Positions 26,814 to 31,119 of a stretch of DNA of 64,000 nt are shown here, one piece after another (position 1 is the stretch's first letter; the number at the start of each line of letters is the position of its first letter). Position numbers and translations under genes: made by a program. The notes under the pieces were generated by a model. That model ran no database searches. It had not been told where the DNA came from and worked only from the letters and a program-made list of their open reading frames with translations. Source of the DNA: Bacteroidota bacterium (GTDB taxonomy: Bacteria > Bacteroidota > Bacteroidia > Cytophagales > Cyclobacteriaceae); contig JAFDYX010000020.1 of NCBI GenBank assembly GCA_018267215.1, positions 1-64,000 on the forward strand, given 5' to 3'.

Positions 26814-26872
26814 CCCCAACTTCCAACCTCCAACTTCTAACTTCCACTTACACTTACACTTTCACTTCTGTT
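26814..26872. repeat. Low-complexity ACTTCCA-type intergenic repeat
   Basis: Short words of the type CAACTTC, CTTCCAACC, CTTACACTT and CTTTCACTT are reiterated between the aroG-type gene and ffh. This is an ordinary kind of Bacteroidetes intergenic simple repeat. Confidence 0.5.
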
Positions 26873-27942
26873 TTGTTCATTACCTTCTCCTGCACTTGGA
26901 TGGATTCGTGGTGAACCAGCCGCAGCAGGTCGCGGGTGAAACCTTCATCGAGGCCCATGGCTTTGCAGAGGGCTACACGGGTTTTGATGATTTCTTCCCA
27001 GCGCGAAACTTGCAGGATGGTAACGTTATTCTCTTTTTTATACTGACCGATTTTTTCAGAAACCTTCATACGGGCGGCCATCTTTTGCATGATCTCATCA
27101 TCGAGGTGGTCAATCTGTTCGCGCAGCACACTCAGGGTGTCTTTAAACATTTTGTTTTCGCTTGACACAGATCGTACTACCAACTCTTTCACGATTTTTC
27201 CGAGTACGGCAGGTGTTACTTGTTGTTTGGCATCACTCCAGGCCGCATCGGGGTTGATGTGGCTTTCAATCATCAGCCCGGCCATATCGAGGTCGAGTGC
27301 CTTTTGCGAAATGAAGGCAATCAGGTCGCGGTTGCCGCTGATGTGGCTGGGGTCGCAAATGATTTCCAGTTCGGGCAGGCGGGTTTTCAGTTCGATGGCG
27401 ATATCCCACATGGGCAGATTGCGGAACGGCCCTTTTTCGTGCGAAGAAAATCCGCGGTGGATGGCTGCCATTGTTTTGATGCCTGCTTTGTGCAGACGCT
27501 CCATCGCACCGATCCACAATTCCAGGTCGGGGTTGACGGGGTTTTTCACCATCACCGGAATATCTACGCCTTTGAGGGCATCGGCTACTTCTTGCACCGA
27601 GAAGGGGTTGACAGTCGTGCGGGCACCTACCCACAGTATATCTACACCGGCTTTCAGGCAGGCTTCTACGTGTGCCGCGTTGGCTACTTCAGTGGTTACG
27701 GGCAAACCGGTTTCTTTCTTGGCGGCCATCAGCCATTGTAGCCCGATGTTGCCCGCGCCTTCGTACTGGCCGGGCCGTGTGCGGGGCTTCCAGATGCCGG
27801 CACGCAGGGCGTGCACCTCTCCGGTAGCCGCAATTTGTCGGGCGGTAGCAATGGTTTGTTCTTCAGTTTCGGCACTGCACGGGCCGCTGATGATGATGGG
27901 TTTCTTGACATTTAAAAAACCGGAGATAGATTGGAAGTTCAT
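26854..27942 (-). CDS. Bifunctional DAHP synthase / chorismate mutase type II
   Basis: 362 residues joining two steps of aromatic amino acid synthesis. The N-terminal part (1-about 260) is a KDO8P-synthase-like DAHP synthase: IISGPCSAET, LRAGIWKPRTRPGQYEG, VMVKNPVNP, ICDPSHISGNRD. The C-terminal part (about 270-350) is an AroQ chorismate mutase: LREQIDHLDDEIMQKMAARM, VSEKIGQYKK. This fusion is common in Bacteroidetes. It is the last gene of the pheA-aminotransferase-tyrA operon, so entry and branch steps are co-expressed. Confidence 0.95.
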   Translation of the reverse strand: MNFQSISGFLNVKKPIIISGPCSAETEEQTIATARQIAATGEVHALRAGIWKPRTRPGQYEGAGNIGLQWLMAAKKETGLPVTTEVANAAHVEACLKAGVDILWVGARTTVNPFSVQEVADALKGVDIPVMVKNPVNPDLELWIGAMERLHKAGIKTMAAIHRGFSSHEKGPFRNLPMWDIAIELKTRLPELEIICDPSHISGNRDLIAFISQKALDLDMAGLMIESHINPDAAWSDAKQQVTPAVLGKIVKELVVRSVSSENKMFKDTLSVLREQIDHLDDEIMQKMAARMKVSEKIGQYKKENNVTILQVSRWEEIIKTRVALCKAMGLDEGFTRDLLRLVHHESIQVQEKVMNKTEVKV

Positions 27943-27975: not shown

Positions 27976-28821
27976 TTAATTTTTTAAAACGCGTTTGATG
28001 TCGTTGGCCTGGGTCATGATTTTATGTATTGCCTGACTGTCTTTCTTCATCAGGAGGTATTGAAATTTTTGCAGGTGCATGATGTATTCAGTCAATGCTT
28101 GCCCCAGATATTCGGCATTTTGCTCAAAAATAGGCGCCCACATATCGGGCGAACTTTTGGCGAGGCGCACGGTGGAAGCAAAACCACTGCCGGCCAAATC
28201 GAAAATGTTTTTCTCGTCTTTCTCTATGTCGAGCACGGTTTGCCCCAGTAAAAATGAACTGACGTGAGAGAGGTGCGAAATATAGGCCACGTGCTTGTCG
28301 TGTTCTTGGGGCTCCATATAAATAGTGTTCAACTTCAACGCATCAAAAACTTTCAGTGCCGTGGCCAAGGCTCTCTCCGATGATTTTTCGCGTTCGCAGA
28401 CGATGTTCGTTTTGCCTTCAAATAATCCGTGAAAGGCAGCGGTGGGCCCCGAGTATTCTGTGCCGGCAATCGGATGAGATGCCACAAACTGCATCCGCTT
28501 CGGATGGTTGGTCATTGCCTTGCTGATCAAATTTTTGGTTGAGCCTACATCAATCACTACGGTATGGTCGCTAACGGCATCCAACACCGAAGGCAATAAA
28601 GCGGCAGTGGCGTTTACCGGAATGGAGACGATGACAAAATCACTTTTAGATAAGGCTTCGTTTTCAGGAAGAATTTTATCTACGATTTGGAGTTCTACTG
28701 CCTTCGCAGCGTTGGCCTCATTTCTATCAACGCCAAACAGCTCAGTAGCAACTCCTTCTTTGCGAAGTGTAATGGCCATTGAGCCACCGATCAACCCCAA
28801 CCCGATAACTGTTACTTTCAT
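27976..28821 (-). CDS. tyrA: Prephenate dehydrogenase
   Basis: 281 residues; oxidises prephenate to 4-hydroxyphenylpyruvate. NAD site VIGLGLIGGSMAITLRK, then FGVDRNEANAAKA, the prephenate site ASHPIAGTEYSG (catalytic His) and HDKHVAYISHLSH. No chorismate mutase domain; that activity is supplied by the fused gene 33 bp downstream. Overlaps the aminotransferase gene by 4 bp. Confidence 0.94.
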   Translation of the reverse strand: MKVTVIGLGLIGGSMAITLRKEGVATELFGVDRNEANAAKAVELQIVDKILPENEALSKSDFVIVSIPVNATAALLPSVLDAVSDHTVVIDVGSTKNLISKAMTNHPKRMQFVASHPIAGTEYSGPTAAFHGLFEGKTNIVCEREKSSERALATALKVFDALKLNTIYMEPQEHDKHVAYISHLSHVSSFLLGQTVLDIEKDEKNIFDLAGSGFASTVRLAKSSPDMWAPIFEQNAEYLGQALTEYIMHLQKFQYLLMKKDSQAIHKIMTQANDIKRVLKN

Positions 28822-29996
28822 TTCCGATTTTCAATTTGAGCTTTGTAATCTTTTATCCTGCTGAGCGCCTCTTTCAATTTTTCTTCAGTCGCGCAAAGTG
28901 AGATACGGACGAATCGCTGGCCGGCATGGCCGAAGATGAACCCCGGGGTGATAAATACTTTGGTGCGATATAAAATTTCATCAATCCATTTTTCAACATC
29001 CGCCACCGCATCGGGTGCTTTGGCCCACATAAACAATCCCGATTGTTTTTGGGCGAAGGAACAGCCCAGCAATTCGAGGATGGCAGCAGCGGCCGCTTGG
29101 CGGGCGCGGTATATTTTATTTTGATTTTGAAACCACTCTTGCCCGCTTTGAAGCGCTACGACAGCAGCATGTTGCAACCCCAAAAACATGCCGGAGTCCA
29201 TGTTGCTTTTTACTTTCAGCACTGCTTCAATCAATTCTTTTTTTCCGGCCACCCAGCCAATGCGCCAGCCCGCCATGTTGTGGCTTTTGCTGAGCGAGTT
29301 CAACTCCAACGTTACATCGCCTGCTCCTTCTATAGACAAAATGCTTTGCGGGTTGTCATTTAAAATCAGGCTGTACGGATTGTCGTTTACGAGCAGGAAA
29401 TTGTTTTTTCTCGCTAGGTCAACTAAAACTTTCAACTCCTCACGCGATGCTATCCGTCCGGTGGGCATGTGCGGAAAATTTACCCACATCACCTTTACCT
29501 TCGACAAATCTTTTTTCTGCAACGCTTCAATATCAATTCCCCAATTCAGTTCTTCTTTCATTTCGTAAGGCACCAACTTAGCGCCCACTAAATTGGAAAC
29601 AGAAGAATAGGTTGGATAACCCGGATTGGGGATCAGCACTTCATCGCCTTCATTCACAAAAGCCATGCTGATGTGCATGATTCCCTCCTTCGAGCCCATC
29701 AGCGGAAGGATTTCCGTTTCCGGATGAAGTGACACCGAGTAGGTGGAAGAATAAAAACCGGCAATGGCTTGCCGCAGTTGCGGAATGCCCTTATAGTTTT
29801 GGTAGCCGTGGTTGGCATGGTCTTTTGCGGATGCGCTCAGGGCTTCAATCGTTTCGGGCGATGGCGCTAGGTCGGGGCTGCCAATGCCGAGATTGATCAC
29901 CCGCAGTTCGGGTGTATCCAGCGTGCGCACCTCTGCCAGTTTCCTGCTGAAGTAATATTCTTCTACTTGCTGAATCCGTTTGGCTGTTGCTATCAT
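28818..29996 (-). CDS. PLP aminotransferase of the Phe/Tyr operon
   Basis: 392-residue class I aminotransferase. Seen: LGIGSPDLAPSP, VNFPHMPTGR, DNPYS and the PLP lysine in ELNSLSKSHNMAGWRIGWV. Placed between pheA and tyrA, it most likely transaminates phenylpyruvate and 4-hydroxyphenylpyruvate (or prephenate). Its sequence looks like the LL-DAP-aminotransferase/aspartate-aminotransferase group. Overlaps tyrA by 4 bp. Confidence 0.88.
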   Translation of the reverse strand: MIATAKRIQQVEEYYFSRKLAEVRTLDTPELRVINLGIGSPDLAPSPETIEALSASAKDHANHGYQNYKGIPQLRQAIAGFYSSTYSVSLHPETEILPLMGSKEGIMHISMAFVNEGDEVLIPNPGYPTYSSVSNLVGAKLVPYEMKEELNWGIDIEALQKKDLSKVKVMWVNFPHMPTGRIASREELKVLVDLARKNNFLLVNDNPYSLILNDNPQSILSIEGAGDVTLELNSLSKSHNMAGWRIGWVAGKKELIEAVLKVKSNMDSGMFLGLQHAAVVALQSGQEWFQNQNKIYRARQAAAAAILELLGCSFAQKQSGLFMWAKAPDAVADVEKWIDEILYRTKVFITPGFIFGHAGQRFVRISLCATEEKLKEALSRIKDYKAQIENRK

Positions 29997-30044: not shown

Positions 30045-30887
30045 CTATTTATATTCAATTTTCCCTTTTTTGTATTCACCCAGAATATTCAAGTTGTGCA
30101 CCTGCCGCAACACCTGGCTGACGGCATCGTCATAATTTTTTCTGCGCTTCCATTCTAAATCAATGTGGATCGAATATTCGCTGGGTTTGCCGATGATGGG
30201 GATGGACTGGATTTTGGTCAGGTTGATAGTATTTTTTTTAAAAGTCATCAGCGCCTCGGCCAGGCTGCCCACTTCGTTGGCTACTTCAAAGCATAGCGAG
30301 GCTTTGTTCGCTTCACCATTTGCATTTGATTTTCGCGCCAGCACCAGAAAGCGCGTAAAATTTTTCTTGTGCGTCTCAATACGCTTTTCTAAAATCTCCA
30401 ACCCGAATTTTTTGGCGGCATATTCATTGGCAATGGCGGCTGTGTCTTTCAGTTTTTGGGTAGCCACCTTTTTTGCTGAAACGGCCGTATCATCGCTTTC
30501 GCGGATGTCCACCCCTTTCAGCCGATACAGGTAATCCGAACATTGACGGATGGCCATGGGGTGGCTTTCGATGTTTTTGATGTCGCCCAGTTTCACACCG
30601 GGCAGCGCCAGCAAGTGCATGTGGATGGGCAGGTACACCTCACCGATGATGGCGAAGTGATACTCCTGCAACAAAAAATAGTTGGGCAGGATGCTTCCCG
30701 CAATGGAGTTTTCAATGGCCATCATGGCAAAATCGCTTTCGCCTTTTTTCAGTGACTCACACAATGCATGAAAGGAAAGACACTCAATAGCTTCTATCGG
30801 CTCAGCAAAGTAGGTAAGGGCTGCCACTTCATGAAAGCTGGTGGCAATGCCTTGAATGGCTATTTTTAACTTTTTCTTTTTGCTCAT
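30045..30887 (-). CDS. pheA: Prephenate dehydratase
   Basis: 280 residues; turns prephenate into phenylpyruvate. Catalytic region with the SDYLYRLKG and DTAAIANEYAAKKFG stretches and FTRFLVLA, then an ACT domain (LAEALMTFKKNTINLTKIQS ... YSIHIDLE) for Phe feedback. No chorismate mutase part, unlike enterobacterial PheA. First gene of the Phe/Tyr operon; a terminator stem ends 15 bp before its ATG and is part of a leader-peptide attenuator. Confidence 0.95.
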   Translation of the reverse strand: MSKKKKLKIAIQGIATSFHEVAALTYFAEPIEAIECLSFHALCESLKKGESDFAMMAIENSIAGSILPNYFLLQEYHFAIIGEVYLPIHMHLLALPGVKLGDIKNIESHPMAIRQCSDYLYRLKGVDIRESDDTAVSAKKVATQKLKDTAAIANEYAAKKFGLEILEKRIETHKKNFTRFLVLARKSNANGEANKASLCFEVANEVGSLAEALMTFKKNTINLTKIQSIPIIGKPSEYSIHIDLEWKRRKNYDDAVSQVLRQVHNLNILGEYKKGKIEYK

Positions 30888-30902
30888 ATACTATAAATGA
30901 AA

Positions 30903-30923
30903 AGCCCCGATGCTATCGGGGCT
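30903..30923 (-). terminator. Attenuator terminator of the pheA operon
   Basis: Perfect 9-bp stem AGCCCCGAT/ATCGGGGCT with a 3-nt loop, followed on the minus strand by TTTTCATTTAT. It lies between the leader peptide and pheA, not after a gene, so it is a conditional terminator. On the + strand it is followed by CTCTTTTATTATTTTT but there is no + strand gene to end here. Confidence 0.8.
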
Positions 30924-30970
30924 CTTTTATTATTTTTCGTTTTGTCTGTTTCTTAATTTACAAAGCGATT

Positions 30971-31036
30971 TTACTTCAAGCCCCGGTGGAGTTGATAAAA
31001 GTAAAACCAAAAATAAAATCGCTGGCTGTTGCTCAT
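30971..31036 (-). CDS. pheL: Aromatic leader peptide (attenuation control)
   Basis: 21-codon open frame, ATG at 31036 to TAA at 30971, too short for usual gene calling. Codons 7-14 encode FYFWFYFY: four Phe, three Tyr and one Trp in a row, which is far outside chance. Preceding residues are MSNSQR and following are QLHRGLK. It sits 84 bp before pheA, separated by the terminator. Leader peptides rich in the end-product amino acid are the classical sensor of charged tRNA. The symbol is by analogy with the E. coli leader. Confidence 0.88.
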   Translation of the reverse strand: MSNSQRFYFWFYFYQLHRGLK

Positions 31037-31107
31037 GGGCTCAAAGAAAAAAGAAAAATTATTGATGTACAATAGTTTGTGTTTAGAATTTTAAATATTT
31101 TTTTAGC

Positions 31108-31119
31108 TAACGGCCGTTA
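31108..31119. promoter_or_regulatory. 12-bp palindrome between pheA operon and purH
   Basis: Perfect palindrome TAACGGCCGTTA in the intergenic region between divergent operons, about 70 bp upstream of the leader peptide start. Candidate binding site of an unknown regulator. A CCCGC/GCGGG hairpin lies beside it at 31132-31146 without a T-run. Confidence 0.3.

Follow-up and report, generated by a model that had tools for sequence, protein, structure and literature searches.

According to our analysis, the pheA operon of the window (the whole 64,000-nucleotide stretch of DNA analysed here, from a source genome of 3.38 Mb in 35 contigs) is preceded by what we consider, with a probability of about 90%, to be a classical ribosome-mediated transcription attenuator. 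A short leader frame carrying codons for the amino acids made by the operon is followed by an intrinsic terminator, and RNA pairings are found that would exclude the terminator or cover the regulatory codons. The initial annotation had read the region as a case of ribosome-stalling attenuation, a reading that anatomy, conservation and covariation support at the level of sequence.

Leader region and controlled genes in the window

The features discussed below all lie on the minus strand and are given in the order in which they would be transcribed, together with the evidence for each.

31108..31119, minus strand: palindrome TAACGGCCGTTA, possible operator (pattern search)
31042..31072, minus strand: possible promoter TTG-N20-TTTCTTTG, tentative (judged by eye)
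30971..31036, minus strand: leader peptide frame of 21 codons, MSNSQRFYFWFYFYQLHRGLK and stop (sequence; leader present in 30/30 same-genus loci)
31011..31023, minus strand: region 1, arm across codons 5-9, partner of region 2b (fold, duplex energies, alignment pairing)
30995..31018, minus strand: regulatory codons 7-14, FYFWFYFY (sequence; F and Y both in 122/122 distinct leaders)
30978..30985, minus strand: region 2a CGGGGCTT, antiterminator strand within the leader frame (duplex energies, anchored alignment)
30964..30976, minus strand: region 2b AAGTAAAATCGCT, containing the stop codon, partner of region 1 (duplex energies, alignment pairing)
30900..30926, minus strand: intrinsic terminator, with region 3 (30926-30915), loop, and region 4 (30911-30900) with U run (terminator in 30/30 same-genus loci)
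30045..30887, minus strand: pheA, prephenate dehydratase, first controlled gene (PF00800)
28818..29996, minus strand: aminotransferase class I/II (PF00155)
27976..28821, minus strand: tyrA, prephenate dehydrogenase (NF006307, above cut-off)
26854..27942, minus strand: DAHP synthase/chorismate mutase fusion (PF00793 and PF01817)

The leader frame starts with the ATG at 31036 and ends with the TAA at 30973-30971, and its codons 7-14 (31018-30995) read TTT TAT TTT TGG TTT TAC TTT TAT, that is, eight aromatic residues in a row. The terminator, AAGAGCCCCGAT-AGC-ATCGGGGCTTTT, forms 9 Watson-Crick pairs, or 12 when a G-U and two more A-U pairs are counted, and its end lies 12 nt from the pheA ATG (30887), or 15 nt when measured from the 9-bp core. 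Region 2a pairs with the 5' arm of the terminator over 7 bp (8 including a wobble), and AGCGATTTTA (31023-31014) pairs with TAAAATCGCT (30973-30964) over 10 bp, extended by wobbles. The initial annotation had described the frame from 31036 to 30971 with its FYFWFYFY codons, the 9-bp stem 15 bp before pheA, the 7-bp pairing of the stop-codon end of the frame with the terminator and the 10-bp stem from the aromatic codons to the stop codon; all of these are confirmed, the three stems being longer by the additional pairs just given. It had also named the four genes of the operon, whose identities match Pfam. The aminotransferase scores highest with NCBIfam models of LL-diaminopimelate aminotransferases, though under their cut-off. 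The 191-nt stretch 30870-31060 has a folding energy of −50.1 kcal/mol (z = −4.76), as low as none of 200 shuffles, and an Rfam scan of the window returned no family at its cut-off, so that no T-box or riboswitch match was obtained.

Upstream of the frame, 31042..31072 is tentatively what we take to be a promoter, on comparison with the consensus. A palindrome resembling TAAC-N4-GTTA lies 81-112 nt upstream of the leader start in 32 of the 49 loci of the window's own family (copies counted) and occurs 11 times elsewhere in these loci; in L016, whose frame start was misjudged, it lies at 49 nt. The exact pattern CTAAC-N4-GTTAG has 2, 4 and 5 sites in three genomes against 9, 11 and 7 for a control pattern, which is commoner than the palindrome in all three genomes. 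The palindrome at 31108-31119 is listed as a possible operator. Some of the exact sites precede an ilvE-like gene or sit between pyrB and a cysteine-synthase-like gene, as judged from sequence.

Conservation of the leader within the genus and beyond

When we searched 58 genomes for pheA, we obtained a match in 47 of them, including 32 of the 36 genomes of the window's own genus, and the search returned 30 loci, all of this genus and with the window's own among them. Leaders were scored by the number of aromatic residues within 9 codons. All 30 loci have a leader at a score of at least 6, and 29 of them reach at least 7 in a stricter scan; the miss is L016, with a one-base shift in the leader and two stops in the pheA match of the same assembly, which are probably sequencing errors. 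Two further own-genus pheA matches (L045 and L046) likewise have both leader and terminator. An RFYF start of the leader is common to much of the genus.

A terminator was found in all 30 same-genus loci, 9-78 nt upstream of the matched pheA start. This range bears on the idea of a control without a transcriptional switch, in which the hairpin acts on pheA translation or the leader does no more than supply pheA with ribosomes, as could be suspected in the window from a hairpin end only 12 nt from the pheA start. Such a variable gap argues against it; moreover, a stable stem with its U run and an alternative strand able to pair are the needs of a transcriptional switch, and we regard a purely translational role as very unlikely compared with transcription attenuation.

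Outside this set, 169 further loci were collected, consisting of 16 from the other matches of the 58-genome search, 80 named loci (the best 80 of at least 587 matches) and 73 from a class-wide sample, in which 295 genomes were drawn and 79 had a pheA match (the six omitted being the own genome, two already in the set and three not taken). The sets overlap, since at least seven named loci copy genus loci and some class genomes are the same as named ones. L085 was dropped as it lacks an upstream stretch, leaving 168 usable loci, nearly all from Bacteroidota. Among these, 91 score at least 7, against 0 of 840 dinucleotide shuffles of the same stretches, and 104 score at least 6, against 16 of 840 shuffles; 64 of the 168 have no leader at score 6. 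Across all 199 loci, 119 ATG frames with a score of at least 7 lie within 320 nt upstream of pheA, compared to 8 at other places in 2.6 million strand-bases. One might imagine that such a frame lies by chance next to a terminator that serves unrelated transcription, given that T-rich sequence would make Phe codons common, but the scores reached by 91 loci and by no shuffle, the covariation of the helices described below and the conservation itself, which already contradicts chance, leave this explanation a negligible probability.

To see where the leader occurs, 62 of the named loci were grouped by record title. Among these, again drawn from the best 80 of at least 587 matches, a leader at score 6 is found in 15/15 loci of Cyclobacteriaceae and kin, 21/21 of Sphingobacteriaceae and kin, 8/16 of Bacteroidales plus Prolixibacteraceae, 2/4 of Chitinophagales and the single Hymenobacter locus (1/1), and in 0/3 Flavobacteriales MAGs and 0/2 Chlorobi-like loci. 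In 9 of the 16 loci from the other matches of the 58-genome search, pheA is preceded by a chorismate-mutase-like stretch and has no leader. The Phe/Tyr leader is therefore not peculiar to the source genome, and it recurs in Cyclobacteriaceae, Sphingobacteriaceae and part of the examined Bacteroidales and Chitinophagales loci. Tandem aromatic frames precede pheA in L033 (MLQTRFFFGYYYFYAAA and MVPTQQVFFTYGYYFFYLKKPARCCQC) and in L186, and are perhaps double attenuators. In L062, a MAG record titled Legionellaceae bacterium, pheA and leader are Sphingobacteriaceae-like, and the contig is probably mis-binned.

Amino acids sensed by the leader

In total, 133 leaders were found at score 6, of which 122 are distinct; a terminator was identified in 112 of the distinct ones, and the scan returned none in the other 10. 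The aromatic runs of the 122 leaders contain 508 Phe, 415 Tyr and 34 Trp codons. Phe and Tyr occur together in every one of them, with at least two of each in 120, and Trp occurs in 34. This mix fits, as far as the gene content goes, a cluster that would serve both branches together with their common first step. A DAHP synthase gene lies downstream in 95 of 97 loci with a leader and in 13 of 48 without one (Fisher test), counting, from L047 onwards, the loci whose downstream sequence exceeds 3.8 kb, near-copies included; in 44 of the 97 leader-bearing loci, the order is aminotransferase, TyrA, DAHP synthase. Genes of divergent sequence are missed in this count, because the tblastn search used the window's proteins at 1e-10.

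The same 122 leaders bear on whether the amino acid sequence, rather than codon supply, stalls the ribosome upon binding of free Phe or Tyr, in the manner of TnaC, an arrest peptide that responds to tryptophan. Such an arrest would suit a peptide that is short and aromatic and that, in much of the genus, begins with RFYF. Nevertheless, the residue order and its surroundings vary over the distinct leaders, the conserved part being the aromatic make-up, and the RNA helices explain most of the recurrence of letters at the C-terminal end; an arrest peptide is thus highly improbable.

RNA pairing and covariation

The initial annotation had pointed to compensatory changes among relatives as a check of the element. 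Relatives do share the aromatic run as well as the three helices, whose pairing is kept through double changes and the replacement of whole arms. Covariation is apparent from the duplex energies, the region 1:2b helix and an anchored count for the antiterminator, but for the antiterminator it is not seen on a plain alignment within the genus.

For the antiterminator, the stretch after the aromatic run was paired with the terminator 5' arm in the 112 distinct leaders with a terminator. The mean duplex energy is −13.7 kcal/mol for cognate partners, −10.6 for the partner from another locus and −6.8 for shuffled partners; outside the own family (n = 71), the respective values are −13.2, −9.4 and −6.7 kcal/mol. 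A helix of at least 7 is present in 86/112 cognate, 299/665 other-locus and 43/560 shuffled combinations. Both arms have changed together in L092 (GCCAGGGCT with GGTCCTGGC), L117 (AGCGGGGTT with GACCCCGCT) and L167 (GAGGCTTT with AAAGCCTC).

The helix between regions 1 and 2b, which covers the regulatory codons, behaves similarly, with means of −10.7 kcal/mol for cognate and −6.8 for both other-locus and shuffled partners, and of −8.9, −5.9 and −6.1 kcal/mol, respectively, outside the own family. It is kept despite replacement of whole arms, by ACAACAC with GTGTTGT in L048 and by CATATTGGT with CTAATATG in L071, a Pedobacter. The p-values of both duplex tests, as well as that of the Fisher test above, are too small because related loci share descent.

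On the plain MAFFT alignment of the 30 genus loci, which give 29 distinct rows, pairing in the 1:2b helix reaches 93.1%, compared to 39.2-62.2% after sliding. At the outer pair of this helix, 14 of the 29 rows have G-C and 11 have C-G; on the pheA tree, two to three changes suffice for this switch, one of them forced by well-supported branches, and a test on independent pairs was rejected since the events are too few. The antiterminator is 83.8% paired on the same alignment, but its covariation in the genus is no greater than in shuffled rows, as 382 of 500 shuffles were as high, and sliding by +1 gave a higher value. Six of the 30 rows (L001-L003, L023, L028 and L029) are shifted by one base at this place. 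In an anchored alignment of 41 of the 49 own-family loci (seven copies and L023 having been dropped), the antiterminator pairs in 333 of 369 cells, above the mean of 313 and the maximum of 324 from 1000 row shuffles. When terminator pairs defined in L008 were counted on the MAFFT alignment, the stated structure was 64.7% paired and a +1 slide 90.5%; because the rows are out of register there, this count was set aside in favour of the terminator scan of the genus loci, the duplex energies and the anchored alignment.

Proposed mechanism and ribosome model

From the anatomy, conservation and covariation set out above, we infer how transcription, translation, stalling and read-through would be linked. 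RNA polymerase would start just upstream of the small frame, with a ribosome trailing behind it. With too little charged tRNA-Phe or tRNA-Tyr, the ribosome would stall on FYFWFYFY, covering region 1 and freeing region 2a; as region 3 emerges, 2a would pair with it, no terminator would form and the pheA operon would be transcribed. When both charged tRNAs are plentiful, the ribosome would reach the stop codon, where in the window it would sit on 2a, so that region 3 would pair with region 4 and transcription would end before pheA. The third helix, formed by regions 1 and 2b and possible when the aromatic codons are ribosome-free, should restrain 2a kinetically.

We modelled these states by equilibrium folding of RNA cut in the terminator loop, assuming a ribosome footprint of −15 to +13 around the P site. 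For the window, the predicted antiterminator probability is 0.93 when the ribosome occupies the first aromatic codon and 0.00 when it has reached the stop. For ribosome-free RNA before region 4 it is 0.97, and termination without translation therefore needs a kinetic argument, namely that helix 1:2b forms first. Averaged across 103 leaders, after omission of nine whose helix is below 6, the probability is 0.92 in the stalled, 0.32 in the stop and 0.77 in the free state. The stalled state exceeds the stop state in the window and in 57 of 62 loci outside the own family, but in only 19 of 41 inside it, where the mean at the stop is 0.62. For the other 22 leaders of this family, the model does not prefer the stalled state, since the stop codon lies far beyond 2a; in many own-family leaders, 20-28 nt separate the first base of 2a from the beginning of the last sense codon, compared to 9 nt in the window. 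In these long-frame leaders, either the parked ribosome just downstream of 2a would hinder the long-range pairing or termination would follow release. As a full test of the mechanism, equilibrium folding was rejected, being only partly consistent with it. Among the own-family loci, L004, L007 and L008, for example, have frames that read through 2b and end at TTTGTTAA or TTTGTTGA, well past 2a; the window differs from loci of this type in that its frame stops right after 2a.

Relation to known leader attenuators

Among known leader attenuators, the ilv and thr leaders of enterobacteria have mixed codons, and his and trp leaders are known too; to our knowledge, a Phe plus Tyr leader is not among them. 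A comparative genomics study by Vitreschak from 2004 reportedly names, in its abstract, Bacteroidetes/Chlorobi among the groups with candidate attenuators.

The initial annotation had called this kind of control known from proteobacterial pheA, and E. coli pheL (NC_000913.3) indeed shows the same order of parts, with aromatic codons, a 2a strand, a 2b strand pairing back to the codons and a GC-rich terminator before pheA. The two differ in that the pheL peptide contains Phe and no Tyr, whereas Phe and Tyr are mixed in the window leader, and in that the pheL stop codon precedes 2a, whereas that of the window leader follows it. In E. coli, a fused chorismate mutase/prephenate dehydratase lies downstream and tyrA is on the other strand, in contrast to the single cluster of the window with pheA, the aminotransferase, tyrA and the DAHP synthase/chorismate mutase. 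The window leader is not a Phe-only pheL, since Phe, Tyr and sometimes Trp codons are mixed.

The Rfam model of the family Phe_leader (RF01859) has its genome-wide best match at the window element, end to end, with 39 bits (the next match having 32.7), which is under the 55-bit gathering cut-off. At E up to 10, it matches at the leader in 11 of the 15 same-genus loci searched; such sub-threshold matches are common, being found in 12 of 14 control genomes at the same limit, with one over the cut-off. The helix of the model also differs from the conserved one, as it sets the aromatic codons against an A-rich linker with several mismatches. We therefore rejected the match as proof of shared descent, the aligned helix not being the conserved one and other places in the genome reaching 28-33 bits. 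At four loci behind other matches (L282, L283, L284 and L286) there are short frames, none with an aromatic run of the leader kind.

Leader peptides have been treated as known in Proteobacteria and Actinobacteria, with Firmicutes added (PMC2965389, as far as its available text goes). For Bacteroidota, the accessible part of a transcriptome study of Flavobacterium psychrophilum reports a structured element before pheA, also in other Flavobacteriaceae and without an Rfam match, as well as strong indications that amino-acid operons are subject to leader-peptide attenuation (PMC9723704), and the accessible part of a report on B. thetaiotaomicron mentions small frames reminiscent of leader peptides (PMC7366714). 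The F. psychrophilum element, which may be the same as the window element, shares the phylum and the first gene with it; that part of the text gives no peptide, helices or amino-acid specificity (PMC9723704). In our literature search this was the nearest case, and no described Phe/Tyr leader was found in Bacteroidota or, within them, in Cytophagales. The initial annotation had known of no described case in Cytophagales, and this holds as far as we searched; a pheA element in Flavobacteriaceae is in print (PMC9723704, in its accessible part).

This kind of switch is well known but hardly described in Bacteroidota; what appears new, and was not found described, is the Phe/Tyr mix and the anatomy predicted here. 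At the level of sequence and backed by covariation, the element would extend the case for ribosome-stall attenuation to Bacteroidota, a phylum not among the textbook groups, with one switch that would be set to two amino acids together for a joint Phe/Tyr operon. It would make transcription-translation coupling in Bacteroidota directly testable, and it points to very small, easily missed genes ahead of amino-acid operons.

Other candidate leaders in the source genome

A scan around the amino-acid genes of the same genome suggested four more candidate leaders: a His leader, MNNTHTTHHHHTILTDGRLMR, before hisG (L200, 1180-1245); a Trp leader, MYQFTINAWWWHRSINDRCRSLYC, before a chorismate-binding, trpE-like gene (L201, 748-822); an Ile/Leu/Val leader, MNNRFTILSGRIELIVISLIIVLTKMKR, before the ilv cluster (L204, 263-349); and a Thr/Ile leader, MQSSHLISISAATVSFTGTGATIITTTIITG, before an aspartate kinase/homoserine dehydrogenase gene (L207, 1823-1918). 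By eye, the candidate His, Trp and Ile/Leu/Val leaders are followed by a terminator-like hairpin.

The Bacteroidetes phylum starts translation largely without Shine-Dalgarno sites. We tentatively raise the possibility, to which we give somewhat less than even chances, that control by leader-peptide attenuation is both ancient and general in Bacteroidia, with a joint Phe/Tyr sensor for the aromatic operon and sister His, Trp, Ile/Leu/Val and Thr/Ile leaders. Ribosomes and RNA polymerase would then move in step, and in the part of the own family where the stop codon lies past 2b, termination would come after ribosome release and not from a ribosome parked on the stop. If true, this would mean coupling of ribosome and RNA polymerase in a phylum largely without Shine-Dalgarno initiation.

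Two of the candidate leaders were followed in other loci. Before hisG, a His-rich frame and a terminator are present in 20 of 20 same-genus loci with enough upstream sequence (L209-L226, L234 and L237; L238 is a second piece of the same gene, and L235 and L236 are too short) and, outside the genus, in one of seven loci (L230). Before ilv, a branched-chain-rich frame is present in 17 of 18 same-genus loci (L239-L255 and L260, the miss being L255), with a weak hairpin in L243.
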